Origin: Saururus chinensis | Taxonomy: Eukaryota; Streptophyta; Magnoliopsida; Piperales; Saururaceae | DNA length: 64,000 nt | Reading direction: 5' to 3' | Assembly: GCA_035235625.1 (NCBI GenBank) | Contig: CP141146.1 | Coordinates: forward strand, 27,088,501 to 27,152,500 | Position numbers and translations under genes: made by a program | Shown: positions 7,076-61,635 of the stretch, piece by piece | Numbering within the stretch: position 1 is the first letter of the stretch | Layout of the letters: every line of letters starts with the position of its first letter | The notes under the pieces: model-generated | What the model saw: only the letters and a program-made list of their open reading frames with translations | Database searches by the model: none | What the model was told of the DNA's origin: nothing

Positions 7076-7436
7076 CTGACTCTTTAGGAACAACCTAGGT
7101 AGGGCTCACCCACTCACTATCAGAGATGAGGTATATGATTCCTACATCTAAAAGCTTTACCAGCTCTTTCATGATGACTTCTCTCATGTTGGGATTTAAT
7201 CTCCGATGACCATCTCTAAAGGGTTTAGCTTGATCCTCTAAGTGTTTCCTATGCATGAAAACCGAAGGATCAACTTCTCTGAGGTCAATTACAGTCAATC
7301 CATTGGCTCTTCTATGTGCAGTGAGGACAATTAGCAACTTACTCTCTTGATCACTAGTCAAGCTAGATGAGATGATCACAGGGAGAGTGTCACTAGGCCC
7401 CAAAAAGGTATACTTGAGTGATCTAGGCAGATGCTT
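7076..7436 (-). pseudogene. H pol fragment (protease-RT junction)
   Basis: On the minus strand this encodes the segment just before the reverse transcriptase core, including LNPNMREV and SDSEWVSPT. It closely matches F at 14.9-15.2 kb. It stops at the left where unrelated sequence begins and at the right where the F LTR is inserted. A fossil fragment. Confidence 0.85.
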
Positions 7437-16300: not shown

Positions 16301-18021
16301 TTAAGGCTCATTAGGGGCTAAATTATCTAACCTTTTATTTGTGGTACCTAAGGACTCCTCTCCAACTTGATTATCAATGTGTCGACCACTCCTAAGGGTA
16401 GTTATGGACTGAACTTGTTCATTAGAGGAAGGGACTATCTCTACTCCACATTGACCTTTAGGGTTTTGTTGGGGCTGACTCGGCAATGTTCTTGTCTCTC
16501 TCTTATTTATAGCATTGGCTAGTTGTCCAATTTGGGCTTCTAACTTTGCTATAGATTGTGTGTGAGAGTGAAGGAGTTGGGATTGTGATTGAATGCCTTG
16601 GAGGGCACTCAAGACCTTTTCTTCAAAGCTTAGACTCCTATTGGGTTGGACATATGGATGTTGGACTTGAGGTTGGTGGATATGGGCCGGTGGGACTTGG
16701 AATGGTTGCTTAGGAACTTGGTTACCCATAACCCCTTGGTTTTGTGCCCGCCAGGAAAAGTTAGGATGATTCCTCCACCCAGGGTTATATGTGTTTGAAA
16801 ATGGATTATTCTCAGCCCTAGGGAAGGATTGGGTAGCATTCACATGGTCTTAGACAAGCTCAGGAAATTGAGAGGCAGAGGGGCACTCTATAATAGTATG
16901 GGCTGGGCTAAGGCATATTGTGCATGCATCTTGAGTGAAGGGAGTAGGCTGATGTGTTGAAGTCATATGGAGGTCAAGCTTCCTACTTAAAGTATCAACT
17001 TTAGAGGAGATGTCTAATGGATTTTTGACTTCATACAAGCCACCCCTAGAGGGGGCATTGTTTAAGGTAGATAGGCCACTCTCATTTCTATTCAACGCAG
17101 CATGTTGAAGAGAATTTTCACTCAAGTCCTCAAAAAGTTTCCATGCCTCATTTTCATTTTTTAGTAAAAAGGTACCCCCACAACTTGCATCAACAAGATG
17201 ACGGTTTTGTTCAGTAAGACCCTCATAAAAACGTTGCACTAATTGCCACTTAGGGACAGCATGATGAGGACACCTCCTAAGAAGGTCCTTAAGTCTATCC
17301 CAACTCTCATGGAACTGCATTCAAGGGGAAGTTGGGCAAAGGTGGTTATGGCCTTTCTCATTTGGTTGGTCTTACCTATGGGGAAGTACTTTTTAAGGAA
17401 TTCTTGTTGCATTTGGGCCCAAGTTGTTATGGTATTTGGCTCTAAAGAGTGAAGTCATTCCTTAGCCTTATCTTTTAATGTGAAAGGAAAAAGGCGAAGT
17501 TTAACAGCTTCATCTGTTAAATTTGAGAGCTTAAAAGTTGTGCATATTTCCAAAAAGTCATCTAGGTGCCTATATGGGTTTTCATTATTAAGTCCATAAA
17601 AAGATGGAAGCATTTGAATAACATTGGGCTTAATTTCATAATTTTGAGCAGCAACCGCTGGCAACCTAATGCATGAAGGGGAAGTGTACTCATTGGGAGT
17701 GTAATACTCCCTTAGAGCTTTAAGTGGTGCATCTAACTGATGTTCAGCCATGATAATGGTAGAGGTAGTATGGGTGGAGGAATTGGTGGGAGAGTTAGGG
17801 GGTGTAGGGATGTAGGTCGAGGGCAACTCAACTCTCCTAGATGTCCGCTCAGGCTCAGGGTCAAATGGCACTAATCGGGGGAGTAAGGAGCGACAACCAC
17901 GCATATACAACAAACACACCACACAATTTAAAGTGCAAAAAGAGAAAGATGAAGCAAAAATAACTAAGGAAAAAGAATAAAAAGGGAAAAGGATCTTGCA
18001 AACCGAAGAGAAGCTTGTCAA
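16301..18021 (-). pseudogene. F gag region, lightly broken
   Basis: The minus strand encodes Athila-type gag. A plausible start is the Met of MAEHQLDAPLKALREYY at 17751, because the codons above it look like leader. The capsid-like domain (NVIQMLPSFYGL; LRLFPFTLKDKAKE) is followed by the PHHAVPKWQLVQRFYEGL segment, a short Cys/His stretch (CTICLSPAHTIIECP) and a Gln/Pro-rich linker towards protease. The region is nearly complete, with only a few interruptions, in keeping with a recent insertion. Confidence 0.8.
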
Positions 18022-18200: not shown

Positions 18201-18206
18201 AAAACT

Positions 18207-19366
18207 TGATCGTTTATAATTAAACCCTTTGCAAGTGTACAAGGTAATTGTACTAGGATGAGTATTTAACGGTTGTCGAACCTCAGGGACGGATGAATAA
18301 TTACTAAATATAAAAAGGAATTTGCTGATTGAAAACTAAAACAACTTAAACTTAAATTAAGTAAAGGAAAAGAAAACAACTAGTTTAAAAATAAGAGATT
18401 AATGTGATAGATTTTACTTAGGAAATCGAATCCACTATAGAACCATAACAATTCCTTAACTTTTAATCTAAATCTAGTGTGAATATGAACAAGTATTCTC
18501 AGCTACAAGCTAGAATTACTTCAGAAAGAATCATTAATTAATTTCCATGGCATGAACTATCTTCGACAATAACACGAATCATCTACACTAAATAGCTATA
18601 GGCATGACCCGTCTAATCTTAGTATAACTCATCCAAGTCCTTAATTATCTGAACATTAAAACTATTGTATGACCATCTCATCTAAATCACAGAAATTAGA
18701 ATTGATGCAAATATCAAAACCACATCAATCTATCATCTATAAGACAATAAATCAACATAGATTTGAATAAACATTAAAAACTCTTCCATTAAAAAGGAAA
18801 TCCTTATCATACAATTGTCATAATTCACAACTGAGATCTAAATTAAAAAGAAAAGAAATTAAAACTTATCTATAGGTTCATCAACTCCTAAGTAAAAGAA
18901 TAGTTTAGCCTTCCATGGTAGAAGAAAGTAATTGAATCTCCATTGAAAGCTTTGGCTTCTTCTCCATCTTCTTCTTCAGAAAATCTACTTGTTCTCCCTT
19001 AATTTCGTGCCAAATAAGTCTTTATATAGGCATTAGATCCGTAAGAAAGAGTTGTATATGAAAAGGACTCAAAATTGGGTGAAATAAGGAATCTGCGCGT
19101 TATGCCGATCGATTGCCTTGCATTCCCGTTCGAACGCTTGAACTGAATTTTCTTCAAATTTACGTGTAACAGATCGATCGGTTAGTGAGGCCGTTCGATC
19201 GCCAATGAAGAATCTGCAAAATAAGCCAATTTAATTCAAAACACCATGGAAGCTTTTTCTAACCTAATTAAATTTAATATCTAATAATTTAACCTATATT
19301 AACACTTAAATGAGACTAGATAATAAAATAATTAAGGGTAAAATAACGCATAAATTATACTTATCA
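18207..19366 (-). repeat. F 5' LTR, 1160 bp
   Basis: Same length as 7437-8596, with nine base differences noticed. Several of these fall in the CG palindromes near 19110-19200. It ends at 19366 with ...TTATCA, followed by the target-site copy TGCTT. Confidence 0.95.
19021..19200 (-). promoter_or_regulatory. F LTR promoter: TATA box with upstream palindromes
   Basis: In element sense the TATA box CCTATATAAA lies at 19030-19021. Upstream (higher coordinate) come a CGATCGATCGG-type palindrome near 19105, TTCGAA near 19130, a second ATCGATCGGT near 19170-19180, and GGCGATCGAAC near 19195. The same arrangement is seen in the left LTR (TATA 8251-8260) and in the solo LTR at 44236-45409 (TATA about 44574-44582; palindrome 44420-44433). 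Binding of a host factor to these palindromes is inference. Confidence 0.6.
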
Positions 19367-22276: not shown

Positions 22277-23715
22277 TGTTGTTATGTTTGAAACAAGACT
22301 ATGAAGAAGTCAAATTCATATTTGTTTTACTTGCCAATTATAGTAGACAAGGTCAATCCACAAGGAAAGCTTTGTGCAACAAAGAAAATTATTAGGAAAA
22401 AAATATATGATAGAAAAATTAAGAAAGAAAGAGTAGAAGAGTATTGAAGCAATAAAGAGATAAGAAATCAAGAAAAGAAAACACTATGGCATTAAGGATC
22501 ATTGGAACATCTAATGATGTTCTTCATGTATCATGTTATCTCAGTTAAAATCGAATGAATATTCTATCTAACAGGAAGATATGAACATTAAAAGCAAAAA
22601 TCAAAAGAAGTTATACTTTGGATAGATGAAGGATAAAAAGAATTGTTTCTTCAAGAGTTCTATGTATCAAAATCACAAAAGATCAAGAAGGAGATCCTTC
22701 AAGCATCTTATGTATCCAAATCACAAAGAAAAAAGAATAAGAACAATATTAAATGAACATTACCTCAAATAACCAATACATACTTCAAACCATTAATGAA
22801 ACATGAATATAACTCCATTAGATTGTTACAAATCACTTCTATATTTAGCTTCAGAGCTTAGAAAGTCATTAGAATAAAACAAAAATACAAAAGAAGAGAA
22901 GAAAATTAAGAAAAAAGAGAGCTCCAAAGAGGAGGGGATGATGCCTCCATCACGTCTACCCCTCTATCTATAAGAGTAGAAGGGGTTACTTCAAAGGGAA
23001 AAGTCCAATCATATCCATCGATTACGTCCTGATTGATTGCTTGATTGGTTGCTTCTTTCGCAATGATTAGATTCTAAATCAATCAAATAAATTAATAATT
23101 TATTTAGCAAATAAGTATTTTTGAGTCTTCCTTTAGTTATCTAATCAGCCTCATTGTCTTTCCTTATGTATATCAATCACAACCAATGAAAAGATTCTCC
23201 ATGTGTTGGCCTCGGGTTTGTTTACTAGCTATCCCATTTCATGTCGAATTTGACCTATATATCTTCGGGATTATGAATTTCATCCTGAAATAGCAATTAG
23301 AGCCACAAAAGTATTCTTTCCAATTCCATCAGAATCGTATCAATCCGAATTATACATAGAAATATATGGTCAAAATACTAAGTTTGTATCAATCTATCTA
23401 AATCAGCTTCTTCCCAAATTTAGTTCTCTTGATGCAAATATGAAATCCAACGGGTTCAAAAGGTTGTATTCGACCATTCCATGCATTCTTAGACCATTAG
23501 GAGCCCATTCTTGACTTTTAAATAGTTTATGCAGTTGGGCTGCACTTCATCTTCTACTTAGATCCTATTGAAGCCTATTTAGACATGTAAACATAACTAA
23601 GTTCCAACTAACCTATTTAAACCATAAATATAACATATAAGCAATGAATTAACGCAAAATAAGATTACAATTCAAGATTTAAAAGTATCTAATTGAACAT
23701 TATTTTAATGCATCA
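22277..23715 (-). repeat. Solo LTR of the A1/B family, 1439 bp, inside C1
   Basis: On the plus strand it runs TGTTGTTATG...AATGCATCA and matches the A1 LTR end to end. It is flanked by the direct repeat GGTAG (22272-22276 and 23716-23720), and C1 aligns with C2 continuously across it. No internal element sequence is present, so it is a product of LTR-LTR recombination. Confidence 0.9.
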
Positions 23716-31025: not shown

Positions 31026-32440
31026 TGATGAAATAAAATAATGTTGAATTAAATGCTTTCAAATATTAAATTTTAATCCTATTTTTTGTTCATTCATTAC
31101 TTATTTAGGCTACTTATAACTTGAACAGGTGAGTTGGACCTTCATTGTGTATACATGTCCTAATGGGCTTCGATGGAATCGAGGTTGAAGAGGAAGCGAA
31201 GATAAACTAACTAAAGCTATTTAAGGGTCAAGAATGGGCTCTTAATTGTCTAAAGATACATAAAATAGTCAAACACAACTATGTGGCTTTATTGGATTTC
31301 AAATTTGCATCACGAGAACAAAATTCGGGAAAAAACTAACTTGGACATATTGACACAACCTTAATATTTCAGTCATATCATCCTATATAAAATTTGGATT
31401 GTTATAATTTTGGTTGCATTAGAAAGAAAACTTTCGTGACTAAAATCCTTATTTTAGGACAAAATTCATAATTGCAAACATATATGGGTCAAATCTAACA
31501 TGCAAAGGGTGGCTAGTAAATTAACCCGAAGCCAACACATGGAGGATCTTTTCAATGGTTGTAATTGATATACATAAGCAAAGATAATGAGGTTGATTAG
31601 ATAACTATAGGAAGACTAAAGAATACTTGCTAAATAAGTATTTGATTGATTTAAAATCTAATCATTACCAAATAAGCAACCAATCAAGTAGTCAATCAGG
31701 AAGCAATCATGGGATATGATTGGACCTTCCCCTTTGAAGCAACCCTTCTGCTCCTATAAAAAGAGGGGTGAACGTGGGAGATGAATCATATCCTCCTCTT
31801 TAGATCTCTATTCTCATATTTTTTATCTTCTTTTGTAGCTTTTATTTTAAGTTTTATTGTAATGGCTAACTAAGCCCTCTACCTAAGGCTAGAAGAATTT
31901 TTGTAACAATCTAATGAAGCTCTATTTATATTTCATCATTGGTTTCAAGTAATTATTAGTTATTTGAAGTGATGTTCATTTAATATTGTTCTTATTATTG
32001 TGTCTTTATAATCTTAATACATAAGATTCTTGAAGGCTCTGCTTGATCTTTGTGGTTTTGATACATAGAACTCTTGAAGAAATAATTTTTTTTATCATTT
32101 ATCTAGCCAAAGTATTACCTATCATTGTTTTTTCTTTTAATGTTCTTATCTTCCAATTAGATAAAATCTTTATTCAATTCTAACTGAGATAACATGACAC
32201 ATAAAGAACATCACTAGATATTAAATGATCCTTAATGCCTTAGTATTTTATATTATTAAATTTTATCTTTACAATTTCATTGCCTCAATACTCTTCTACT
32301 CTCCCTCTTAATTATTTCTTTACTCCTCTTATTTTGTAATCATTGTGATAGTCACACAAAGGCAATACTTTTGGATTTGACCTTGCAAAATTACATCCAC
32401 TTGTGCACTTGCAAGTAATATAACCTTAGGCTTTGTCATA
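31026..32440 (+). repeat. B 5' LTR, 1415 bp
   Basis: It starts TGATGAAATAAAATAATG and ends near GGCTTTGTCATA. It matches the A1 and 22277-23715 LTRs in inverted orientation. A TATA-like box CCTATAAAAAG lies at 31753-31763. A primer site is not obvious just downstream (32441-32470); 32441-32762 is an AT-rich leader without a gene. Confidence 0.85.
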
Positions 32441-32762
32441 TCATTGCTCAAAGAATTAAAGAAGACTTGAAGCATTCCGGGTAGTTTCATTCCACTTCAT
32501 TTACTTCATTTCTTTTAGTTCTTATTTTTTTTAGAATTGTTTCTTTTATATATAAATTTGAATTGCAAACATTTCTTTTGGTTAATCTATAGAACTTTTT
32601 TCTTTTTAGTTTTACTTTGTCGATTTATTTTTTTAGCATATTTCCAAAAAGAAAAAAAATCTCATGTTTTTTATGCGCTCATGGCAACATGACTAAAGTG
32701 GTAGCTTAAAAAGTGTTAATATTGCTTTTAACATTTCTGAGTTTTCTCTTTCTTTAAACACT

Positions 32763-35700
32763 ATGGATGAGAATATAGGTAATAATGATGTTAATGAGAT
32801 GCAAAATAATCAACAAGTTAAAACCTGTCGTGATTATTTGCAACCAACTAGAACAAGTTCTTCTTGCATGATTTTTTCAACTAATGTGGGTAATTTTGAT
32901 CTCAAGCTGGGAGTAATACAATTACTATTAAAATTTCATGACTTAGATTCAGAAAGCACATATTTATATTTAAAAGAGTTTGAAGATATCTGTGCAACTT
33001 TGCCAAACCAAAATATTTTTAATGATGTTACTACATTAAAACTCTTTTCATTTTCTTTAAAAAAAGACAAAAAATTGGTTGAATTCATTGAAGCCAAGAT
33101 CCATTAGAACATGGCAAGAAATGCAAAGATAATTTTTGAAAAAAAATTTCCCCACTAATAAAATTAATACACTTAGAAAGAATATCATGAATTTTTCACA
33201 TTTCAATGTTGAAAAAGATTTAAAGAACTTTTGTTGTTGTGCCAACATCACGAATATGAAACATGGCATACAATTAATTTCTTTTATAATGACTTAACTT
33301 CTCAAATGAGGCAATTTGTTAAAATAATGCATAATGAAGAGTTTTTTAGTAAATAACCTGAGGAAACATAAGACTGCTTTGATATATTGGCTAAAGAAGA
33401 TTCTAATGAATTTGAAAGAGCTAATAAGATAAAATCTAATATGGCAACTAAGGGAGCATATACCTTCTTAAAGAAGAGGATGATGTGAAAGCAAAAATTG
33501 CAAGTTTTAGCAGAAAGGTTGAGGTTATAGAAATATATAAGAAAAATATATCTAAAGCTTCTTAAAAAGTGCAAGATATTTGTAGTATATGTGAGAGTGA
33601 TGGATGCCAAACAAAGGATTGCCCAACAATCCATGATTTTCAAGAAGTGTTACATACTCAAGAAAATGCTATGAATACTTACAAAAGGCTTTCCTTTCTC
33701 CTTATTCTGAAACTTATACTCCTAATTAGAGAAATCATCCTAACTTTAGTTTGAGAAATGAGTCTAATGTGCAGGTACCTCCTTCTTCAACTTATGTTCC
33801 ACCACATAAGAAGACTCTTGAATGCACATTGCAAACATTTATGCAGAGTTAATTACTAACTAAACAATGTAATCTATCAATGACTTGAAGACTTCTATCA
33901 CTCAGTTGACCACAACTTTGAGCACTCAAGAAAAAGGGAAGTTTTTTTCTCAACCTCAAGCAAATCCTAAAGGTTAATTTGTAGGTGAAAATTTGAATTC
34001 ATCAAGTTTACAAGAGGAGCATGTTAAGTCCACCACCACTTTGAGAAGTGGAAAAGTCAATAACAAAGATATTCCAAAGAAGGTTGTTGAACCCAATGAG
34101 TCTTTAAATTCTAAACATGGTGATGACTTGACAACTCTGATTATGTTTCTTCTATTCCTCCTTTTCCCCAAAGATTACAATCTTCTTCTAAATTTGTGCA
34201 AAATGGTGACATTCTTAAAAAATTTAAACAAGTTAAGATTAACATTCCTCTTTTAGATGTCATTAAACAAATTTACTCTTATGCAAAATTTTTGAAAGAC
34301 CATTATACAATCAAGCATATGTTAAATGTGCAAAAGAATGCATTGTTGACAAAACAAGTAAGTGCAATTTTGCAACAAAACACCCCGCCGAAATATAAAG
34401 ATCTTGGTTGTCCAATCATATGTTCTATAATTGGAAATTATAGAATTGAAAAGGTTTCGCTTAATCTTGAGGCAAGTGTTAATCTCTTACCTTATTCTGT
34501 TTATTAATAATTGGGACTTGGTGAATTGAAGCCCACATGCATTACACTTCAACTTGCAGATCGCTTAATTAAAACACCAAGAGGAATTGTTGAGGATGTG
34601 CTAGTACAAGTAGAAAAGTTTTACTTTCATGTTCATTTTATTGTATTGGATACGCAACTAGTTTTTAATGCTTGTACTCAAATTCCTGACATATTAGGTC
34701 GCCCTTTTCTTGCTACTTCTAATGCTCTTATTAATTGTAAAAATGGTGTTATGAAGCTTTTTTTTTTGGAAATATGACTTTGAAATATAAAATTTTTAAT
34801 ATTTGTAGGCAACTAGGAGATGATGATGATGTCCATGAAGTGAACATAATTGAAAGTCTTGTGCATAACAAGCCTCTTATCTCTTCATTTTTTGACCCTC
34901 TTGAGGCTTGTCTTGCTCATTTTAATTTTGATGATGAATACCATGTAGTTGTTTCCTGACAATTGGACCACATATAAGCCAAAACGTTGCTTCATATCCT
35001 TAGAGAGCATAAAAAAGTAATTGGTTGGACCATAGTTAATATTAAGGGAATTAATCCCTTAGTTTGCACTCATAGGATTTTCTTGGAAGATAATGTCAAA
35101 CTCTCTAGAGAAATGCAACATAGGTTGAACCCTAACACGAGAGAGGTTGTGAGAGCAGAAGTCCTAAAATCATTAGATGTATATATCATATACTCTATTT
35201 CTGATAGTTAGTTGGTAAGTCTTACCCAAGTGGTGCCCAGGAAATCAGGTGTGACTATAGTAAAAAATGAAAAAGATGAGTTGATCCCAACTAGGGTCAC
35301 CACTAGTTAGCGCATGTGTATTGACTACCGAAAACTCAACTCTGTTACTAGGAAATATCATTTTCCCTTATCATTCATGGACCAAATCTTAGAAAAGGTG
35401 GCTGGTCATCATTTTTATTTTTTCCTTGATGGCTATTCTAGGTATAACTAAATTAAGATTGCACTTGAGGATAAAAAAAAGACAACTTTTACATGTCCAT
35501 TTGGTACCTTTGCTTATCGAATGATGTCGTTTGGATTGTGCAATGCTCTTGACACATTTCAAAGATGCATGATGAGTATATTTAGTGACATGGTGGAGCA
35601 TTTTCTTGAAGTTTTATGGATGACTTTTCTATCTTTGGATATTCTTTTAATGATTGTCTTAATAATTTGGAAAAGGTTTTGGTTAGATGTGAGGAGAAAA

Positions 35701-44235: not shown

Positions 44236-45409
44236 TGATAAGTATAATTTATGCGTTATTTTACCCTTAATTATTCTATTTTCTAGTCTCATTTAAGTGT
44301 TAATATAGGTTAAATTATTAAATATTAAATTTAATTAGGTTAGAAAAAGCTTCCATGGTGTTTTGAATTAAATTGGCTTATTTTGCAGATTCTTCATTGG
44401 CGATCAAACGGGGTCACTTACCGATCGATCGGTTAGACATGATTTGTAAGAAAATTCAGTTCAAGCGTTCGAACGGGCATGCAGGGCGATCGATCGGCAT
44501 AACGCGCAGATTCCTTATTCCACCCAATTTTGAGTCCTTCTCATATCCAACTCTTTTCTTACGGATCTAATGCCTATATAAAGACTTATTTGACACGAAA
44601 TTAAGGGAGAACAAGTAGATTTTCTGAAGAGAAGAAGGAAGAAGAAGATGGAGAAAAAGCCAAAGCTTTCAATGGAGATTGAATTATTTTCTTCTACCAT
44701 GGAAGGCTAAACTATTCTTTTACTTAGGAGTTGATGAACCTATAGATAAGTTTCAATTTCTTTTCTTTTTAATTTAGATCTCAGTTGTGAATTATGACAA
44801 TTGTATGATAAGGATTTCCTTTTTAATGGAAGAGCTTTTAATGTTTATTCAATTCTATGTTGATTTATTGTCTTGTAGATGATAGATTGATGTGGTTTTG
44901 ATATTTACATCAATTCTAATTTCTGTGATTTAGATGAGATGGTCATACAATAGTTTTAATGTTCAGATAATTAAGGACTTGAATGAGTTATACTAAGATT
45001 AGACGGGTCATGCCTATAGCTATTTAGTGTAGATGATTCGTGCTATTGTCGAAGATAGTTCATGCCATGGAAATTAATTAATGATTCTTTTTGAAGTAAT
45101 TCTAGCTTGTAGCTGAGAATACTTGTTCATATTCACACTAGATTTAGATTAAAAGTTAAGGAATTGTTATGGTTCTATAGTGGATTCGATTTCCTAAGTA
45201 AAATCTATCACATTAATCTCTTGTTTTTAAACTAGTTATTTTCTTTTCCTTTACTTAATTAAAGTTTATGTTCTTTTTAGTTTTCAATCAGTAAATTCCT
45301 TTTTATATTTAGTAATTATTCATCCGTCCCTGAGGTTCGACAACCCTTAGATACTTATCCTAGTACAATTACCTTGTACACTTGCAAAGGGTTTAATTAT
45401 AAACGATCA
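44236..45409 (+). repeat. Solo LTR of the F/H family, 1174 bp, inside the MULE
   Basis: It starts TGATAAGTATAATTT and ends AAACGATCA, matching the F LTRs in the opposite orientation. It is flanked by ATAAC (44231-44235 and 45410-45414). The TATA box is at about 44574-44582 (CTATATAAAG), with ACCGATCGATCGGT at 44420-44433 and TTCGAA at 44469-44474 upstream. No internal element sequence is present. Confidence 0.93.
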
Positions 45410-45414
45410 ATAAC

Positions 45415-48400
45415 ACAATGCATATAAAAAATTTCAGCTGAAGAATGGGGGTGGAAAAGGTAAGCCTGAACAATGCTCCCCTTCCTTACGCCTTTTGCGT
45501 ACTCTATTATTCGACCTCCTTTGGCTTGTCGTTGGAACATCTGCCACATTGGGATGCCCCCCTTGTGCGTTGGTACATCATTTGCGGTTATGACCCAAGT
45601 GACCGCATGTTCCACATTTTCGTGAGGCTTTGAGAGGCGGTTGTGACTCTATCCGCTTTTTTCGTGGACGCCCCCGCTACTTTTGTGGGATAGGTGGGCT
45701 GAATGTAGGCATAACTCCAGCTGGTGCCCACTGGTGCCTATCCTTCGTTGGGTGTAAGGGCTCTCGATAGGTCAATTTATACATTTTAGTAGAGTACCAT
45801 CTTTCTCAATACTCAGACACATAGAAGTGTCTATTATCGATTGCTGCGATTGCATGCTTATATGGTAGACCCAGATGTTGAAATTTTCCACATGTGCAAG
45901 TACGATCAACTAGGTTTACCACATCTTGTGAAGAAAATATTGTGAGTATGAGCGCACGATAAACGACTTTGTTGAGTCCTTGATTACACGATGTATCATA
46001 CGATCATTTACATAAATTGTATCTACTTACACGATAAATGAAAATAATGTGTTTAAACTAACACGATATGAATCCCTCACGCATAAATGAACACATGCTA
46101 TGTACATCGCCGTATGAATGTAATGTACTTGGTGATATAGCGAATTAACCGGGAATTCATACATTGACACGGACAATACAATCATATTCCTTGCTTCTTC
46201 TCGCCTGTTTTCGATGTGTTTTCAGGCAAATGGGGTTAGCTCTTCCATCATATTTTGTCCATCTGTCCGATGTTTTTCAAATAATGTTGTTGTGTGCTCC
46301 CTCGTGTGTTCAATTAAATGAGTTATAGGCATCAATTTGGCTTTTTTGAAAATTGCATTTGCACTTTCAGACCTATTTGAGATGAGGGTCCCATATCTTT
46401 TCCCTGGAAATGATACATTGGCCCAGTGCTCCGAACCTATCTTATTTAGCCAAGCATATGTTTCTGGATTATGTTCTTTAATGTTGTTCATTGTTTCGTC
46501 ATACACATTTTGTCTGAATGTTTTGTCTGCAACATGGAGCTGATTCTTTAGGTAGTTGTCCTTGAATCTATCTAGCATATTTTCTGCCATGTGATGGATG
46601 CAATATCCGTGGTGTGTAGATGGGAAAAACTTCTTCATAGCATTTTCCAATCCCTTCTGTCTATTAAAAATGATTGTATCCAACTCGGTTGGAGGATCAA
46701 AGAATAGATGATTTCTAAGCAACTCAAGAAACAAGCACCAAGTTTTCTCGTACTCGTTCTCAACCACTACAAATGTAATGCACAACATATTATTGTTCCC
46801 GTCCAATGCAGTTGCTATCAATAGTTGTCCAGGATACTTTCCTTTCAAGAAAGTTACATCTACCGTTAGCAACGGCCTCAGTGTTGTTCTGAAAGCTCTT
46901 GCAATGGGGCCAAGCATCTATAATACTCTTTTGAAATCGTACCCACCCATAGATCTAGGAATATCACATGATCTCACTAGAACAACTACACTTCCTAGAT
47001 TTATATATTCTATTTGCCTTCCATAAGCAAGAAGTATGCGATAGGATTCGTCTGGGTCCCCATCTATTAAATCAGTCAGTGCTTTACCTACATGACCGAA
47101 TACAATTTAGTTAAGGTTATACGACAACGGCTTACATCGTATTCCCGATTGCATGACATTTTATGTTTTCATGTGATCAAAATCCATACACGATGATTGG
47201 TCATGTTTATGTCAACACGATATTTACGTATGTCATGTGAGTGCAAAATCTGACTATAGTTTAAGCATGTAAATGATAACACGCTTGACTAACATATCGT
47301 GACACTAAATCAACACTTCAATTATTCTCATACATTACCTGCGCGCCAGCATTTCTTGTAGTTCACAGTTATGCCCCTGTGCTTCAAAATATAACTTGCT
47401 ATGCTCTTAGGTGTAATATCTACTGAGTCTTTAAATAGGCCATAACATTTTCTCGTTATACAAAGGTGTGATGCTAGGGGATGGTCAGTTGACTTCCTTT
47501 GGGTTCCACATGAATGAGTTGGCACTAACCTCGTGACAGTCACATGATCTCCTATATTTGAAGCCCTTATGTACTAGTTACAAGAATCATTGGAGCACTT
47601 TGCGGCGTACGTATTCCGGTTTTCATCCACAACACGATATGTAAAATTTGACTTTATTGCTAAGTCGATCAAGACCCTCTTGAAATGCAATAGACTTAGA
47701 AAATGTTCACCCAATTCGAGGAGCTTTGGTAATCCTTAGCTTGCAAACTACCTGTCATTAGCTGGCCTTCACCAATATTCAGTTCTAACATGTTTAAATC
47801 ATCGACGGTATCCCAATTTGCCTCTGCTGCAACGTCGACATTACTAGGAACCTCGTTGTTTCCAAATTCTTCGTGGTCAGACATACTTTCCATGCCATCT
47901 ATATCATTATCGTACCACTTATCCTCAACCCACATATTCTCAACTTCTTCACCTTCTTCACCATCGTAATTACAAGGGTTGTATGGAGGTTCGTAGTTAT
48001 CAAATGAAGTCCTTGCCCCACCCATCGTTGGAGACAATTCCTCTGATCTATTCTGATTGACTTCTAGTTTAGGTTTTGTACTTGTTGGATTGGTGAAAGA
48101 AGATTGACATGGATTTGTTGAGGGCAAGTTTCCCGGTTCTCCCAATCTGCATTGCACATTATCGTGTTAAACAAATGCGACATAAGTCGACATCGTGTAT
48201 TTTGTTAACACACTTACATTTCAAAATACGTTATCCAAACCAAGACAAGAATGCATGTCATTTTATTATATATACGTTGCAACTCATAATTGCTATATCG
48301 CATGTGTATATCATGTAATTACTAATGTGATATATTACACGTCGTGTTTATTTCTTCACACGATATGATTTAACATTAACATGATATGGTCAATATCGTG

Positions 48401-49254: not shown

Positions 49255-50214
49255 TTCACTCACACTTGACTAATTTTTAGAGTTGAAGTTGAATTATATG
49301 GTTGTTTCTCTAATACTCACCCATAATGTTGAGAGACCAAATCCAATGATCTTTGACCTCCTTGTTCACTTCGTTGGCTGAAAAACAAGAAAAAAAATTT
49401 AGTGGATTATTATCGTAATAGAAAGTAACCAATGAATTAAACTGAGTACTTCGAAAAGGGCTGCCTATAAAAAAAAATAAGTAAAGAAAGGGAGTCAAAA
49501 AAATGTGAGGGAAATCATAAGAAAAAAAATCAAAGTTTCGAAATAAAGTTTCATTTTATAAGATAGGGTGAAGCCATCATTGTAACAATGCAAGCACATT
49601 GAAATATCACAGATAAAGCCCACAAGGTATTGAAGTGAACATCCAAACCGCTTAATATTTCGGAAAGGTTGCTAAGTTTTGAATTGGTTCATTTGGCTAT
49701 CTAAACATCTCTTGGTAAGTAGAAGAGCATACTACTTTAAGAAAATTGATCCTCTAATTATCTTGTCAAAAAATTTACATGGACTCACTAACAAATTGTT
49801 TCAAGAGTTCCTCTACATAGAAATTTAATGGCTTGGACTTTTATGAATATTTTTTTATACTTAATCTATGAAAACTAGTGCTTAAGTATTTTAGAGTTAA
49901 TTTTAAAGTTTGATGTTTGCTAAGTGGGGATGAAGGGGTTATTTGGTCTTGCTTTACGATTATTATCTTAGTCTTTACTTCCTCAAAACTAACTTATTAG
50001 CATTGTCACTCATAATTATTATTATTTTCTTCTCTTCTTCTTTTTTTTTTGTATAGCTGAAAACATAAAACTTAGCACTGCTTAAGAGGCAACCCATGAG
50101 TTTTTGAATTTTGTGGGTATATTCACTACAAACCCTCATGAGACGTAACTTGTCCACTGCTATATGTGCTAAATAGGATTGCTAGAGAATAGCAATATTC
50201 TAGTTGGGGGTATT
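49255..50214 (+). other. B 3' noncoding region, second part, and polypurine tract
   Basis: Continuation of B after the MULE. No supported gene; AT-rich. At 50201-50214 AGTTGGGGGTATT directly precedes the start of the B 3' LTR and is its polypurine tract. Confidence 0.8.
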
Positions 50215-50221
50215 TGATGCA

Positions 50222-50545
50222 TGTTGTGAACGTCCTAAGGGCTGCCACCAGGGCCACGTGTTAGGGTAATTAGGTAATAAGGGCATTTAGGTAATTATGT
50301 AATTAATGTTTTCTTTTAATTATGCTAATAGGCCTTAGGTGCTTGTTAGTGATCTCACTTAGCTAGTCTATTTAAGTGTAAGGGCTACACCTTGATTTGA
50401 TCATGAAATGAATGATTAATTATCTCCCATATCTCTCCTCCCTGTCCGGCGGCTATGCCGCTCCCTCTCCCCTTTCCCGGCCTTCCTGCGCATCTCCTTT
50501 CCCAATACCGGCTAGCCAGGCCATTGTGCCACTTTGGGCACAACA
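50222..50545 (+). repeat. E 5' LTR, 324 bp
   Basis: It starts TGTTGTGAACGTCC and ends TTTGGGCACAACA. It contains ATTAGGTAAT-type repeats and a TATTTAAG box near 50370-50380. It matches 52941-53281 with small insertions and substitutions. Confidence 0.92.
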
Positions 50546-50558
50546 TTGGTATCAGAGC
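50546..50558 (+). other. E primer binding site (initiator Met tRNA)
   Basis: TTGGTATCAGAGC directly follows the 5' LTR; TGGTATCAGAGC is the classic complement of the plant initiator-Met tRNA 3' end. Confidence 0.95.
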
Positions 50559-50644
50559 AGTTGGCCATTCAGAGTCGCGTGGCTTGTGGACCAAGATCAT
50601 AGCCAAGATTGTCTCCTCCGTCGACTGAGGCTCCTGGCCATTCA

Positions 50645-50816
50645 AGGTCATTTCTGATAACCAAACTATCACTGATGCCGACTCCATCATCATTGCCACC
50701 GGCACCGTTACCCACTGCCTCGACTTTCCTGAATCCAACGACGGCGCGGTGGGGTTCTAGAACTGCAGAAGCCCAGCCCTGATCTTCAGGAACAAGCCGC
50801 TGGTCGTCATTGGGGG
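50645..50816 (+). pseudogene. Captured fragment: NADPH-dependent thioredoxin reductase
   Basis: The plus strand encodes TDADSIIIATGTVT and, further on, ALIFRNKPLVVIGG. These match the stretch of plant NTRA/NTRB proteins from the conserved ATGA motif to the PIFRNKPLVVIGGG motif. The active-site CAVC segment between them is not recognisable. Full NTR is about 330 residues; only about 55 are covered. The piece starts about 100 bp inside E. Recognition is from memory of the family, and I am fairly sure. Confidence 0.75.
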
Positions 50817-50867
50817 TGAGTGCTCTTTGGACCTTCTCACGGACAGCTGCACTGGACTTTTACTAAA

Positions 50868-50995
50868 CTGGAAATCGTCGACAACCTTCAAATCAGAAAA
50901 GTGGTGGCTTTGCTGAGAGATGCCCAGCGTCCTCTCGTTGTGTTTGGCATAGGCACGGCCTGTGAGAGGTTTGTAGAAGAATTGATCCCCGACGC
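50868..50995 (+). pseudogene. Captured fragment: oxalyl-CoA decarboxylase / 2-hydroxyacyl-CoA lyase-like
   Basis: The plus strand encodes IRKVVALLRDAQRPLVVFGI, the start of the central domain of thiamine-diphosphate enzymes. The closest remembered text is the plant oxalyl-CoA decarboxylase (about AV.LLR.A.RPLIVFGKGAA). About 40 residues are covered out of roughly 570. It lies about 50 bp after the thioredoxin reductase piece with no shared origin. Another enzyme of this superfamily, such as acetolactate synthase, is possible. Confidence 0.55.
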
Positions 50996-51300
50996 AGTGT
51001 TGTGCAACATCGTAGATGCGCCCAGCGTCCTCTCATCCAGCCCGATGACCACCCCCTAGCACCGTCGGCCGCCACTAACCCAGCGCCAGTCATCCTCACC
51101 AGTCCCCTGTTCCCGCTCTCCACCGGAGCACACATCATCCTCCCAACCTCAGTCTGCTTCTTCCCCATCGTCCACTACTGGATCTTCATCATTGCCCTAT
51201 GTCTGATGGGAATGGAAGCCAACCTCCCCTATCTGTACATCCAGCCTCCGACGGCCGCTCAGTGTGCCGCAGCAAACCACCCATGGCCTCCAGCGCTCCT

Positions 51301-51475
51301 GTCCTCGACCTGAGCTGCCCCTCCAACTACCTGCTTTTGGTGATCGAGAAAGCATGCCGGGAGTGGCAGGCATTCCAGATCGTTAAACAAGGGATCTCAA
51401 CCGAGCTTCTAGAGGGCATGCGGAGCGCAAAGTTCTTCTTTTTCAGTGCTCCGATGAAGGAGAAATAGAAGTATT
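51301..51475 (+). pseudogene. Captured fragment: 2-oxoglutarate/Fe(II) dioxygenase N-terminal domain
   Basis: The plus strand encodes VIEKACREWQAFQIVKQGIS followed by TELLEGMRSAKFFF and MKEK. This matches the DIOX_N domain of plant dioxygenases, usually ACREWGFFQVVNHG. The metal-binding catalytic domain is absent. About 55 residues of a typical 350 are covered. The subfamily cannot be fixed from so short a piece. The sequence between 51000 and 51300 is GC-rich and unassigned. Confidence 0.7.
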
Positions 51476-52111
51476 CCTGCTCTACCCGCCTCCCCGCAGG
51501 TCTCTGGCTGACTGTCTACACCAGCGTCCGCGCTGACTTCGACTTCCTCGACCCCGACATCACTACCACCATCGTCATCATTCTCTTCACCGTCCCATCC
51601 CACCGTCTCGTCCACCTCCTACTGTGCTCTGCCTCCAGCTGATCAGGCGGCATCTCCTCCCTCAGAACCGCCGCAATCTTCAGCCAATCTGGAGAGTTTT
51701 TTCCTTCACCAGCCTGTGGGGAAGATTTTCCTTGGGAGATCTTCGGCCAATCTATAGAATTTTCTCCTTGGCGTTGTTCTCCTGGTCATCCGGAGTCCAA
51801 TGGTCCATCAAAGGGAATTTCTGTCACTATCGCGGCTTGTTTGCAATGATTTTCACTGGATTGTTCGCACTGGGAAATTCGGTACTGGCTCCATCTTTGC
51901 CTTGGCCAGCCATCTTTCCAGATATCTCGTGATATTTCCTCTGTTCGAGCTACACTTTGGAATATTATCACTCTGGTTTCTTCCGAGAACGGATATGAGA
52001 CACGATTATGGAATTTGTTATTGGGCCACCCACTTAACAGGAACTATTGGGGCCTCCTCCAACAGGTCCGCCTACATCCCTGTTTTCACCGGGTTTCGGT
52101 TTCCACAAGGA
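51476..52111 (+). other. E interior, unassigned GC-rich part
   Basis: Contains a short internal repeat (TTCAGCCAATCTGGAGA near 51680 and TTCGGCCAATCTATAGA near 51745). Open stretches exist but I could not match them to a family. They may be further captured pieces too short or too changed to recognise. Confidence 0.4.
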
Positions 52112-52640
52112 AGAGTTACGCAAGCTTATGTGGTGGCATGGCATATGCAGCCAACTTCTGCAATTGCTTGTCCGATCTGGCTGGGTTCTTCTTGGAGGCT
52201 GGGAACCTTAATAGAGCCCTAGCATACTATAAGGAAGCTGTCTTTCATCAACCTACAATTGCTTACCTGAAGCAATGGAATGTGTATAAGGCTATGGAAA
52301 TGACACAAGAGGCTAATTTGTATTACCCGCAAGTTTTTTAGACCATACCTGCTTTTGCCATGGCTTACAGCAATCTAGCGAGCATCTATTATGAACAGGC
52401 GCAACGAATCCAATCTGAAGTTGAGCACTCTATAGATGTGTCATCCATATCTTCTGACATAATTGCAAGACTGATTAACGAAGATACGATTCAGGTTTTG
52501 GTTCACTTATTAGGGTACACCGAGGGTGCAAGGAATGACATTTTTGCTATACAATCGGCGCCCATTTAGGTCTTTTTCATGGGATTTTTGGGTACATTAG
52601 GTTGCCTGCACAAGAGGTCTGATTACGGGCTTTACTACAA
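52112..52640 (+). pseudogene. Captured fragment: SECRET AGENT-type O-GlcNAc transferase
   Basis: The first part encodes tetratricopeptide repeats, e.g. SDLAGFFLEAGNLNRALAYY and FAMAYSNLASIYYEQ, very close to plant SEC (SNLAGLFMESGDLNRALQYY). The second part, from about 52400, encodes QRIQSEVEHSIDVSSISSDI, then INEDTIQVLV and GARNDIFAIQSAPI, which belong to the catalytic region several hundred residues further on in SEC. A final RSDYGL near 52620 matches a point still further on. Introns are not seen, so the source was probably mRNA. SEC adds sugar to nuclear and cytosolic proteins; this piece cannot. Confidence 0.85.
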
Positions 52641-52925
52641 CTTGGCAATCCTTCTGGATGGGCTTTGCGTGAGTCTGACGCTCCTTTGCTCTGCCGCCTC
52701 CTTCATCTACTGTCGCTACCACCCACAACTATGCCTTGTCCTTTGGTTCAGTTAACTGCACTTCCATCATGTTTGTGCTCACTTTTGCACTTCTGCTTTT
52801 GAGTAGTGACCCACTATCTCCATCATTCTGTGTGTCTCATTCGTGGTTCCAGACCGGCTGTTCATAGCGGAGCTATGGTGGGCCCAAGTTTGGAGTTTTA
52901 GGTCACCTCGAGGACGAGGTGATGC

Positions 52926-52940
52926 AGAAGCGGGGTGGAA
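52926..52940 (+). other. E polypurine tract
   Basis: AGAAGCGGGGTGGAA immediately precedes the 3' LTR. Confidence 0.75.
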
Positions 52941-53281
52941 TGTTGTTTGTCCTAAGGGCTGCCACTGGGGCCACGTATTAGGGTAATTAGGTAATAAGGG
53001 CATTTAGGTAATTAGGTTAATTAGGTAATTAGTGTTTTCTTTTAATTATGCTAATGGGCCTTAGGTGCTTGTTAGTGAGCCCACTTAGCTAGTCTATTTA
53101 AGTGTAAGGGCAACGCCCTGATTTGATCATGAAATGAATGATTAATTATCTCCCCTTTTCTCCCCTGTCTCTCTTCCCTATCCGGTGGCCATGCTGCTCC
53201 CTCTCCCCTTTCTCGGACTTCCTGCACTGCTCCCTTCCCGTTACCGGCTAGCCAGGCAGTTGTGCCACTTCAGGCACAACA
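52941..53281 (+). repeat. E 3' LTR, 341 bp
   Basis: It starts TGTTGTTTGTCCTAAGG and ends TTCAGGCACAACA; it matches the 5' LTR apart from a few short length differences and scattered substitutions. It is followed by the target copy ATGCA. Confidence 0.92.
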
Positions 53282-53616
53282 ATGCACTAAAATAATGTTG
53301 AATTAAATATTTTTAAATCTTAAATTGTAATCCTATTTTGTGTCAATTCATTACTTATTTGGGCTATTTATATCTTAAACATGTGAGTTGGACCATGTTG
53401 TGTTTACATGTCCAAATAGGCTTCGACAGGATCCAAGTAGAAGAGGAAGTGAATCCCAACTACCTAAAGTTATTCAAGGGTCAAGAATAGGCTCTTAATT
53501 GTCTAAACATGCATAGAAAGGTAAAACACAACTATGTAAACCCATTGGGTTTTAGATTTGCATCAAGAGAACCAAATTCAGGAAAAAGCTGATTTAGACA
53601 TATTAACACAACCTTA

Positions 53617-54356
53617 GGGTCTGTTTGGATTGTTGAAAACTGGGAGAAAGTGAAAGGGAAAGAGAAAATGAATCTGGGTGAAAGAGAAACTAGAAAATTC
53701 CTAAAAAATCCATTGTTTGGTTACACCAATGTTGTAATAAAAAATTAAAACTTTAATCCACCAATGTTGGTAGTAGTGGTGGAGTTAGGCATGGTGGTGT
53801 TGGTGGTAGTGGTGACAGAGGTAGCAGGCATGGTAGCTATAGTGGTGGTGAAAGTGGTGGTGGCAATGGTAGTAGTTGCAAGGGTGTTGATGGTGGCGAT
53901 GGCGGTGGAGTTGGCAATGGTGGTGTTGGCGATAGCAACAGTGCTGACGGTGGTAGTGGCAGTGTTAATGATGGTTGCAATGGTGGTGGTGGAGGCACCA
54001 GCGGCGGTGGTAGTAGCGATGGTGGTGATGGTGATGGCATTGGCAATGGTGACAGCGGTAGTAGTGGCGGTGGTGGCTATGATGACAATGATGGTGGTGG
54101 TGGCAATAATGTCGGTGGCAGCAAGAAGGTCAACATTAAGAATGTTAAAGGCATAAGTTTTTTATATGCAGATTTTCTCCCAAAATCCATGGGTTGAGGG
54201 GTAAAAAGTTGTTGGGCCAATTTTCTACCCATTTTCTCCCAGTTTCTACTTTAGTTTCTTAGTTTCTCTTTCCCTATTGCACCAAACAATGGAAACTATG
54301 GGATTTTAAAAAGATTCATTTCTTTTCCCCCACTTTCCACCAATCCAAACAGACCC
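53617..54356. mobile_element. Tourist/PIF-Harbinger-type MITE, 740 bp
   Basis: Terminal inverted repeats GGGTCTGTTTGGATTG (53617-53632) and CAATCCAAACAGACCC (54341-54356), flanked by the 3-bp duplication TTA (53614-53616 and 54357-54359). The 5' LTR of B shows the empty site CCTTAATATTTC. The core (53762-54130) is a degenerate GTGGTG/GGCAAT repeat that leaves long open stretches on both strands (Val/Met-rich on one, Pro/Ser-rich on the other); these are composition artefacts. No transposase. Confidence 0.92.
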
Positions 54357-55831
54357 TTAGTATTTCGGTCATATCTTTCTATATAAAATTCAGATTGATA
54401 TGATTCTAATAGTATTAAAAAGAAGACTTTCATGGCTATAATAAGGATGAAATTCATAATTCAAAATATATATGCCAATTTGACATGAAAAGAGACAGTT
54501 AGTCAATTAACCCAAGGTCAATACATGGAGGATCTTTTTAGTAGTTGTGATTGACACACATAAAGAAAGATAATGAGGCTGATTAGATAACTATAGGAAG
54601 ACTAAATGATACTGATTTTTTAAATAAATATTTAATTTATTTGATTAATTAAAAATCTAATCATTGTCAAAGAAGCAACCAATTAAATAATCAATCAGGA
54701 AGCAATCAAGGGATATGATTGGACCTTCTCCTTTGAAGCAACCCCTTCTCCTATAAAAAGAGGGATGGACGAGGGAATTGCATCAACTCCTATTTGGAGC
54801 TCTCTTCTCTTATTTTTTCTTCTCTTCTTTTGCAGTGTTTGTTTTAAGTTTTATTGTAATGGCTTATTAAGCCCTCTACCTAAGGCTAGAGGTAATTTGT
54901 AACAATCTAATAGAGCTTTATTCATGTTTCATCAATGATTTTAAGTAAGTATTATTTATTTGAAGTGATGTTTATTTAATATTGTTCTTCTTTATGTGTC
55001 GTTGTTATCTTAATACATAAGATGCTTGAAGGCTCTTCTTAATCTTTTGTGGTTTTGATACATAGAACTCTTAAAGAAATAATTTTTTTATCCTTCATCT
55101 ATTCAAAGTATTACTTATTTTTATTTTTGCTCTTAATATTTGTATCTTCTGGTTAGATAGAATCTTCATTCGATTCTAACTAAGATGACATGACACATGA
55201 AGAACATCACTAGATGTTACAATAATCTTTAATGTCTTAGTATTTTATATTATTAAATTTCATCTTAACACTTTCATTGCCTCAATACTCTTCTACTCCT
55301 CCTCTTAATTATTTCTTTACTCCTCTTATTTTGTAATCATTGTAATAGTCACACAAAGGCAATCCTTGTAGATTTGACTTTGCAAGACTACATTAACTTG
55401 TGCACTTGCAAGTAATATAACCCTAAACTTTAGATCAAATTAATGAATCAATAGTTTATATGTAACAGTGATGTAGGTTCCTTATGGGGATAAAGTTACT
55501 TTAAGACTTGGGATGTATAGCAAGGGCAATGTTGTTATGCCACCTGACATATTTAATGTTTTCTTACTTTAAGGTAGATGATTTTAGGCACATGAGTATC
55601 AATCGTTTTGTATTTGTACATATCAAAATATTCAAACATATACTTGGGCAAGACCTTGTGTGATTTAATATATGATTGGACTTGGATTAAATTTGTACTC
55701 TGATTTAGTATCATATGTTCAAAAAAAAGTTAGCTCATACCCTGAGATAACTTGTCAAATGTTTGACAGAAAGTTTTGAAACTTTTCTTTCTACTCTTTT
55801 ATTTATAAAAATAATTTTAAAGAGTGTGACA

Positions 55832-58381: not shown

Positions 58382-58896
58382 TCATGGAATTCTTCCATTA
58401 GGCTTTGGAGACTGGTTGTGTCGGGGAGAGGCATATGCTCCATTTGAGAGACTCCTCATAGGCTGTTGCCCATTTCTTGCAACAAAACCTTGCATCTTCA
58501 TGCCGTTTCTTGCATTTGGGTTGCTGAGGTTGGCGCCAGTTCTCTCTGTTTGCATGGTTTGGAAATAATACGTGGAGCTAGCCATGTCCTTGAGATTTAT
58601 TAGAGGCTTCAGAACTTCAACAACTTCGCTCATCAGTGGCCTAGCTTTCGGGTCTCGGCTAAGACAGTGGTGGGCTAGCTGAGCAGCTTTCTGAGCTCCT
58701 TTAATAGAGAAGTGACCCTCAAGGCGTGGGTCTACAAGACGAAAGAAACGTCTTCGATCACTAAGATGTGGGCGAGCCCATTCCACAAGGTTGTGCTCCC
58801 CATTTGGCCGGTTTTTGTCCATGGATCGTCGGCCAGTTATCATTTCAAGAAGCACCACCCCAAAACTGTAGACATCACTCTTTGAGGTCAGGTGTC
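58382..58896 (-). CDS. Receptor-like cytoplasmic kinase (RLCK-VII, PBL34/35/36-like), last coding exon
   Basis: On the minus strand an acceptor (TTTCACAG at about 58897-58904) opens an exon starting HLTSKSDVYSFGVVLLEMIT, kinase subdomain IX with its invariant Asp, then subdomains X-XI (ARPHLSDRRRFFRLVDPRLE; AAQLAHHCLSRDPKARPLMS, with the conserved Arg). A tail of about 75 residues rich in Ser, Asn, Gly and Pro ends in SPKPNGRIP and the stop at 58382-58384. The phase fits a split Gly codon. The YYFQTMQ tail is typical of PBL34-36, membrane-associated kinases that relay signals from cell-surface immune receptors. ATP-binding and catalytic-loop exons are not found up to 64000, so the upstream intron is over 5 kb or the gene is broken. 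The exon itself is intact. Confidence 0.85.
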
Positions 58897-61635
58897 CTGT
58901 GAAACAAGGATCAGGTTAGAACTTCAAAATAAGATGTCAAAGTCATTGAGCACCATGATCATTGAAGGAAAAATAGCATTGTTAAACCAGTAGTCAGTTT
59001 AATTATAGCCCTTTTCTAATAAGACACAATAAAAAACAATAGTGCATATTTGTTCATATGAATTTAAGTAAATACTTGAACTGAATTTTTTAGAACTATA
59101 TCACATTGAATTGACCAGAATAAACATGATGATCAATAGCCACAAGTTACTGTAAGCTTAAAGTAAATTGGTCCCTCATAGGAAGCTTATTAATCTAATC
59201 TCAGCCTGAAGTCCCTACGTATCATGTTTATAGTTTACACTCTGTTTTTTTTGTCATAACAAAGAAAACAAATGAAGGAAAAAAGAAAGGACAAAGCTTA
59301 AAATTACGATCCATTTTCACCTCTATAAATTAACAAAGCAAACACTAGACCGTAATAGGCCATTAAGTAGAAGCTATGGCCAATAAGAAGGTCCTGGATT
59401 TACAAAGCAGAAAACCATTAAACAGTGCCATCTCTTCAAATGAGGACCTTTTAATCCAGCCCAAACTTCTTTAATAAATATCATGGTCAAAGACTATCAA
59501 ACATGGATAGAGGCCACTAAGATGTCCAAGCCGCCTTGAAATTCATATGCATCATAAACATATTCATGCTCATGTTCCAACATGGATAATGATTTTCCTA
59601 CACCACTTTCTGTCCAAATGCCAGGTTTTGATTGGATAGTGGAAAGTGGGTCCTCCTATTGTCATGTGAGACCCACTTTTTTCTGTCCAATCAAAACCTG
59701 GTGTAAGGTTTTATTGGACAGAAAGTGTAGGGTTATCAGAACCCTTTCTACAAATGATGCAAGCAAAATAATTCAATCTAAGTTTTATACGATGATGACC
59801 ATCACATCCTAGCTCCTTGCAACCATCATCATGAAGTCAATTACAGCTCTTATTATGATGATGGTGGTGAAATTTTATCCCATTCCCACCTTCCCCCGGT
59901 CCCCCAAGTGTCCCATGTGCATGCAGCCTATATTATAATTTTAAATTGTAAAATGAAGCCCGTCCTAGGACCCCAAATGGTGCCAACAGGGTATAAAATA
60001 ATGATGATGGAGATGATATTCTGCATCAAAAGACCCCATCCAAAAATTCATTTCCTTTATATGAATTAACAGTTATGCATCAAGTCTCATTTCAAATAAA
60101 CACAACGTACCAAATTTTTTAATAGGTATCACTATCAATTTCCTTATTTGAGATCAACAGAATGTAGCCATTACAGTACAACCGTGGACTTGGACTTGAA
60201 GGCCCCAGTGCCTACATAGTTTCCTTTGAGGAATTTCAAACGGGCAGAAATTCACCATCAAGATATTCATGTATATCATGTGTTTTGTTTCAACCTTTCC
60301 GAGGTGATTAATTGCTAATCAATGATACAAGGAACAAAAATAATAAGGTAACAAGATCCTTCGTAAATGTATATTTTCCAGTGCCAATAATGACAGGAAA
60401 TGGACTGCTGTATCCTTAGATCATTAAGAGTGTTGGATATTCTTAAGCAAATTTCATTCTGATATGGTAAACCATATAGTCTCTGTAATCCACTCTTATA
60501 AAAAGCAGATATTTTTTTAAGTTGCAAAATTAAGAAACAAGATTAAACCCCACAATAGCAATATAAAGTTTTAAAATAGTGTATTTTAAGTGTACAACTC
60601 ATGAGGAGGATGTTGCATTTGCTCAAGAGAATGAAGTATAAGCCTCACAATGACATGTGGATCATCCGGAGAGGCATCCTATTCTTTTACATTTTTCTAT
60701 ACGTATTATTACATGGCTTGCATTTTGGTTAAACAACGGCTCAAGTCAAATAATTTTAAGCACCATCAAGGAATATGAAAGAGGAAGATAATATGGTTCA
60801 TGGGAGTGGCCCCAAATAACTGGCAGACAGTGATAACTAAGCTGCCAATGACAGAAATATCCTGTTACATGCCAATCCATGGTTTTATTTTCGTAGTTTT
60901 AAGCTTTTCCTTCTTTATTTACCATACACTTCTCCCCTTCTAGTTATCACCTCACTCCTCATCTCACAAAACCCCTTGGGCCTCAGTTTAACGTGCATCG
61001 TCCTCGTGTTTCTGTCTACTCTCTTGTATACATTATCAGCCTCTCATAGTAAGTATGATTTATTTTTCCCAATAAAAGTACCTTTTTCTAACTTATTACC
61101 ACCAAATAGATCTAAAAATGGGACCATACAAAGCACATGCCTCTTTTCTTTAGATCTACACCTTACAACGAACTGGGTTGAGGCTTGCAGCCCAATAAAT
61201 TTTATATAACCCTCACTGGACTGTTAATTTAAACCTATTTGGCAATAAACGATCATTGCTTAAATATTTGAAGCTTTGAAAACTTTTCCTCAAAGCTTAT
61301 ATATTATTAGACTAATATCTGTGGCAACTGAAAATCAAGTCATTCTCCACGCTTTAGAAACTAAATAAAGCACATTAGAGCAAATGAACTCCTTCAGCAG
61401 CCACAGAAATACAAAAGTTTTCTTTGCACTTCTATCTTCAGTCTTGCTTGAGAACGACTAATTAACAACAGGGTCAGCAGAGATGAGGCTGAATATGTTG
61501 CCATAAACATTTCTCACATGCAATCAGTACTAACATGCATCTGACTTGACAATAATCAAATTTAGCATGGCAGAAAGATAACTTTTCATGTGAACACATG
61601 GACAGAAAAGTACGAGCAAGACAGTTGCTAGATGC
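58897..61635 (-). other. Probable kinase intron, left part
   Basis: AT-rich sequence without recognisable exons on either strand. It contains the foldback MITE at 59597-59731 and ATG-repeat-like text (59820-59880). I looked for the HRD and DFG kinase exons on the minus strand and did not find them. Confidence 0.5.
59597..59731. mobile_element. Small foldback MITE, about 135 bp
   Basis: CCTACACCACTTTCTGTCCAA at the left pairs with TTGGACAGAAAGTGTAGG at the right, and inside it CCAGGTTTTGATTGGA pairs with TCCAATCAAAACCTGG and AAGTGGGTC with GACCCACTT. The whole unit can form a long hairpin. No clear target duplication. The class is not certain. Confidence 0.75.

Follow-up and report, generated by a model that had tools for sequence, protein, structure and literature searches.

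A decayed, non-autonomous LTR retrotransposon of Saururus chinensis carrying pieces of three host genes and probably of a fourth

Introduction

Plant LTR elements that contain parts of several host genes have been described in a few cases. The maize element Bs1 holds parts of three genes, coding for H+-ATPase, xylan endohydrolase and beta-1,3-glucanase (PMC13317346), of which exons only were captured (PMC4717578), and the soybean TRIM GmaRetroS15 likewise contains parts of three host genes, as exons without introns, and is flanked by a 5-bp target site duplication (TSD) (PMC4717578). An earlier note on the locus described here had treated known captures, with Bs1 as its example, as captures of single genes, which is therefore incorrect. 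Its statement that the capture of several genes is unusual agrees well with a maize survey in which, by the criteria applied there, not one of 425 gene-carrying LTR elements, derived from at least 189 captures, contained more than a single standard nuclear gene (PMC2774510). Multi-gene capture is thus already known but rare, the clear cases that we found being Bs1 and two TRIMs, and the element reported here is a new, rather rich example. It was found in a window of 64,000 nucleotides from Saururus chinensis (assembly GCA_035235625.1, contig CP141146.1, positions 27,088,501 to 27,152,500, forward strand), to which all coordinates below refer.

Results

Architecture of the element

The element spans positions 50222–53281 (3060 bp) and displays the following termini.

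50217–50221, no strand: target site duplication ATGCA, left copy (direct reading; the empty site is backed by three copies of an older repeat)
50222–50545, + strand: 5' LTR, 324 bp, TG...CA
50547–50558, + strand: primer binding site TGGTATCAGAGC (direct reading)
52926–52940, + strand: polypurine-rich tract AGAAGCGGGGTGGAA, abutting the 3' LTR (direct reading)
52941–53281, + strand: 3' LTR, 341 bp
53282–53286, no strand: target site duplication ATGCA, right copy

Both LTRs start with TGTTGT and finish with CACAACA, and they are 85% identical in a BLAST alignment of 336 columns, or 90% (290 of 322 aligned bases) if gaps are left out. A single base separates the 5' LTR from TGGTATCAGAGC, which we take to be the complement of the 3' end of plant initiator tRNA-Met and thus the usual plant initiator-Met primer site. 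The two LTRs, the ATGCA duplication, the primer site and the purine tract that the earlier note had described could therefore all be confirmed, and direct TG...CA LTRs, a TSD in the range of 4–6 bp and a primer site and purine tract adjoining the LTRs are the marks of an LTR retrotransposon. The gag and pol of an autonomous element are missing, also as claimed before: a Pfam scan of all six frames across the 2395-bp interior revealed no gag, reverse transcriptase (RT), RNase H or integrase, while the same library recovered RT, RNase H and integrase in a neighbouring gypsy open reading frame (ORF, 12344–15808). We conclude that 50222–53281 is a genuine, decayed, non-autonomous LTR retrotransposon with cis-acting parts only (LTRs, primer site, purine tract). 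An Rfam scan of 50200–53300 yielded no 5S or other credible RNA, so that the 5S rRNA-like LTR of Cassandra TRIMs is not seen here. No further copies of the element occur within the window, and words of the LTR had zero matches in IMG/VR and GTDB contigs, as expected for plant DNA.

Insertion into an older repeat

The right flank, from 53282 onwards, matches three repeats in the window, which end at 3784 (− strand), 23715 (− strand) and 31026 (+ strand). When the flanks are joined at one ATGCA, the match already sets in about 7 bp to the left of the junction (...TTTGATGCA/CTAAAATAATG versus TGATGCACTGAAATAATG and TGATGCATTAAAATAATG), from which it follows that the element inserted into an older repeat of about 1.4 kb, 7 bp from its edge. 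Excision of the element in silico hence restores a continuous sequence matching the three other copies of this repeat, as expected of a clean insertion. The four copies start with TGATGCA or TGATGAA.

2416–3784, − strand: older repeat
22348–23715, − strand: older repeat
31026–32385, + strand: older repeat
53282–55431, + strand: older repeat, hit twice, by the chimeric element and by a MITE-like insertion

Since related internal sequence adjoins the copies at 2416–3784 and 31026–32385 at matching distances (1–1862 and 32779–34598), and since an ORF at 32697–33107, beside the latter copy, resembles gag as judged by eye, the older repeat is apparently the LTR of an Athila-type gypsy element. Inverted ends that are almost perfect, GGGTCTGTTTGGATTG ... 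CCAATCCAAACAGACCC, together with a TTA duplication make the MITE-like insertion (53614–54361, about 730 bp) resemble a PIF/Harbinger-type (Tourist-like) MITE; it carries a GGT-rich stretch and a glycine/serine-rich open frame of 146 aa at 53757–54197.

Several further features of the surroundings were observed. The long open gypsy pol frame at 12344–15808 (− strand) comprises 1154 aa and contains domains of RT, RNase H and integrase; gag-like frames are located upstream of it at 16301–17320, and a frame at 10338–11294 has a weak Transposase_32 match. A MULE transposase fragment (46222–46917, − strand; PF10551, E = 1.9e-17) lies about 3 kb upstream of the element. A 1.16-kb repeat with three copies in the window (7436–8596, 18206–19366, 44236–45410; 95–99% identity) is much younger than most other repeats there, and the C-terminal part of a protein kinase (58382–58915, − strand; Pkinase, E = 2.6e-7) likely belongs to a host receptor-like cytoplasmic kinase gene.

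Host-gene pieces in the interior

Three pieces of the interior could be assigned firmly and one probably, all of them in the sense direction of the element.

50590–50817, + strand: NADPH-thioredoxin reductase (NTR) fragment; two in-frame stops, deletion of 4–8 codons
50874–50981, + strand: probable oxalyl-CoA decarboxylase (OXC) fragment, start of the ThDP-enzyme middle domain; about 35 codons
50922–50936 and 51020–51034, + strand: 15-base exact direct repeat GCCCAGCGTCCTCTC, inside the OXC piece and just past it
51283–51476, + strand: 2-oxoglutarate/Fe(II) dioxygenase fragment, DIOX_N domain; one stop
52109–52404, + strand: O-GlcNAc transferase (OGT) fragment 1, TPR repeats; one frameshift, one stop
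52405–52602, + strand: OGT fragment 2, from the catalytic domain, immediately adjoining the TPR piece; one stop
52612–52632, + strand: possible third short SECRET AGENT piece, KRSDYGL (position by script)

The first piece matches barley NTR (2whd) with E = 3.2e-10 and Arabidopsis NTR (1vdc) with E = 9.5e-9 in phmmer searches, as well as the NCBIfam family TIGR01292 (E = 3.5e-6), and we assign it firmly to an NTR gene. It closes with GGTGAGT, a splice-donor-like sequence that could point to unspliced capture of this piece.

For the dioxygenase piece, the match to PF14226 (DIOX_N) has E = 1.1e-9, and plant hydroxylases are its closest relatives in the PDB, namely hyoscyamine 6-dioxygenase (hyoscyamine 6-hydroxylase, 2.6e-6) and feruloyl-CoA (ortho-)hydroxylase (4.4e-6). 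Similarity thus firmly identifies it as the N-terminus of a plant 2-oxoglutarate dioxygenase, probably originating near the parental start codon.

Fragment 2 of the OGT piece matches PF13844 (GT41) with E = 5.4e-15 and corresponds to residues 604–673 of 7yeh_B, while fragment 1 is best placed, in one of several registers, on residues 359–442 of its TPR region, its first 20 codons having been placed by reading rather than by match. The whole stretch 52109–52602 matches animal OGT with E = 4.4e-34 and Arabidopsis SPINDLY with E = 2.4e-8. We therefore ruled out SPINDLY as the source, and the stretch can be attributed firmly to an O-GlcNAc transferase of the SECRET AGENT type. TPR and catalytic pieces keep the order of the mRNA and protein, with about 160–240 codons absent between them, depending on the TPR register. 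KRSDYGL, which may resemble SECRET AGENT, gave no significant match.

The OXC piece is the least certain. Its match to PF00205 has E = 0.0079, single searches against ThDP-dependent enzymes gave E-values of 0.003–0.02, and in one register it aligns with 13 NCBIfam families, almost all of which are named ThDP enzymes (E = 0.003–0.18). Oxalyl-CoA decarboxylase is its top PDB match, but with E = 0.95, and a tblastn search of plasmids returned nothing significant, the few named matches including the ThDP enzyme pyruvate oxidase at E of about 2. A stretch of Arabidopsis OXC, which we take as a lead only, shares 16 of 32 residues (50%) with the piece without gaps and scores 81, compared to 37 for acetolactate synthase. 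Since the piece comprises only about 35 codons and its E-values are weak, its origin from oxalyl-CoA decarboxylase is probable, not certain. It contains no stops, which are present in every other piece. A repeat as long as GCCCAGCGTCCTCTC occurred in only 0.2% of 1000 Markov-1 random sequences, and GCCCAGCGTCCTCTC may for this reason be a scar of template switching.

The sources of three pieces are thereby established, as are the insertion and its termini. The claim of the earlier note, that at least four unrelated host genes are represented, stands for NTR, the dioxygenase and SECRET AGENT, with OXC remaining a probable fourth (E = 0.003–0.02); the note would have abandoned it at fewer than three significant protein matches, and three were obtained (3e-10, 1e-9, 5e-15). 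It had also placed all pieces in one orientation, and indeed Pfam matches in the interior fall exclusively in + frames, with zero in − frames. The pieces sit in different reading frames, and they encode no usable protein.

Roughly half of the interior, comprising the greater part of 50982–51282, 51477–52108 and 52633–52925, had no source recognisable in searches of Pfam and the PDB, and candidates for additional host genes in these spacers were rejected, the results being empty or nonsensical (e.g. antibody chains at E = 0.1). The GC content of the unassigned spacers is 47–60% compared to 33–37% in the flanks, which disfavours AT-rich introns as their source. Neither terminal inverted repeats (TIRs) nor a Helitron-like end (hairpin followed by CTRR) were detected in the interior. 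At 51683–51773, in a part without assigned source, about 58 bp are duplicated imperfectly in tandem (CTTCAGCCAATCTGGAGAGTTTTTTCCTTC / CTTCGGCCAATCTATAGAATTTTCTCCTTG).

Age and order of events

Between the two LTRs, 32 of 322 aligned sites carry a substitution (22 transitions and 10 transversions; K2P 0.108), which gives the insertion age as a range only, from about 4 My, if 1.3e-8 substitutions per site and year are assumed, to 22 My at a slow rate of 2.5e-9. Identity of the NTR piece is 45% to barley NTR and 48% to Arabidopsis NTR, whereas these two proteins share 70% of their residues in the stretch compared. If the parental protein was about as similar to Arabidopsis NTR as barley NTR is, approximately one third of the residues of the piece have changed, an estimate from one 75-residue piece in hand-adjusted alignments to which errors of the reverse transcriptase may contribute. 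Neutral drift simulated for the time after insertion (about 0.054 per site) led to about 11% amino-acid change with a 99th percentile of 19%, and about 37% was reached only at 0.2 substitutions per site. Since the NTR piece is more decayed than LTR divergence predicts, capture probably predates the present insertion, which would imply that the chimera itself was propagated.

Discussion

We propose a model of RNA-level template switching followed by helper-driven copying of the chimera, and consider this multi-capture account likely. An autonomous relative would most likely have provided Gag and reverse transcriptase, and spliced host mRNAs would have been packaged together with the RNA of the element. 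During minus-strand synthesis, the reverse transcriptase may have jumped between sense-strand templates, also within the SECRET AGENT message, leaving scraps of NTR, probably OXC, 2-oxoglutarate dioxygenase and SECRET AGENT in the direction of the element in place of its interior. The chimera would then have been copied like other non-autonomous elements and finally have inserted 7 bp inside the older LTR, giving rise to the 5-bp duplication. Of this model, we infer the route via RNA, the helper and how many captures took place. For plant Tnt1, in-trans mobilisation of RNA devoid of gag-pol and template switching in the particle both have experimental support (PMC2923131). Repeated template switching is consistent with the sense orientation, the GC-rich spacers, the missing TIR or Helitron ends and the colinear jumps in SECRET AGENT, and, taking the possible scar and the Tnt1 precedent into account, it is the simplest explanation. 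Genes captured by plant LTR elements are usually in sense (PMC7264820); however, four of four pieces in the same direction are expected by chance in 1 of 8 cases, and orientation is therefore supportive at best.

Identical orientation and order of the pieces are equally predicted if a ready-made chimeric host transcript, for instance from a Pack-MULE or retrogene locus, was captured once, via read-through or a single switch, and such chimeric loci are frequent in rice (PMC3726574). The interior nevertheless lacks DNA-transposon ends, the pieces are in different frames, and the internal jump in SECRET AGENT suggests a reverse transcriptase that was switching, so that we regard a single capture as unlikely. 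Capture at the DNA level, in which a Pack-MULE, a Helitron or filler DNA from break repair put genomic gene fragments into a short LTR element, would draw on a process that is common in plant DNA elements, with 1194 Helitron captures in maize (PMC2774510); yet it is a very improbable origin for an interior in which every piece is in sense and neither TIRs, a Helitron-like 3' end nor AT-rich, intron-like spacers are found. That the host-gene likenesses arose by chance or from low complexity, in what would be an ordinary degenerate non-autonomous element, is scarcely credible: even with a weak OXC match and half of the interior matching nothing, three unrelated families are matched at E-values of 3e-10, 1e-9 and 5e-15 and the minus strand has zero matches, which refutes it for three of the four pieces (NTR, dioxygenase, OGT).

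Repeated template switching might be carried further, to a capture-prone family that gained pieces of host mRNA stepwise, with the remainder of the interior consisting of more captured genes or UTRs and forming a readable record of mRNAs that entered the particle, an extension which we consider rather doubtful. Sister copies, if they exist, could tell simultaneous from stepwise capture, and the order of capture bears on how host messages are acquired, and exons shuffled, by plant reverse transcriptase. The element, given three firm pieces plus one probable, would rank among the richest multi-gene LTR captures.

Comparison with described systems

Pack-MULEs and Helitrons similarly collect host gene fragments in a mobile element, but feature long TIRs or Helitron ends (hairpin and CTRR) and often introns, and no such ends were found here. 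The Veju TRIM and BARE-2 chimeras resemble our element as chimeric LTR elements ascribed to template switching between packaged RNAs (PMC13317346); however, they mix element sequences or unknown DNA instead of several identified host mRNAs. Gene-carrying TRIMs of soybean and Medicago measure 1172–1449 bp (PMC4717578), and the present element, which contains three firm pieces and probably one more, lies outside this range of 1.2–1.45 kb at 3060 bp. It shares with GmaRetroS15 the non-autonomous state, several host-gene pieces and a 5-bp TSD, while the lack of introns in GmaRetroS15 has only an indirect counterpart here in spacer GC. Bs1 reportedly forms a new transcribed and translated chimeric gene, in contrast to the differing frames and the stops of the element described here, which, compared by described content, is nonetheless of the Bs1 kind, with pieces of several host genes lying between its LTRs.
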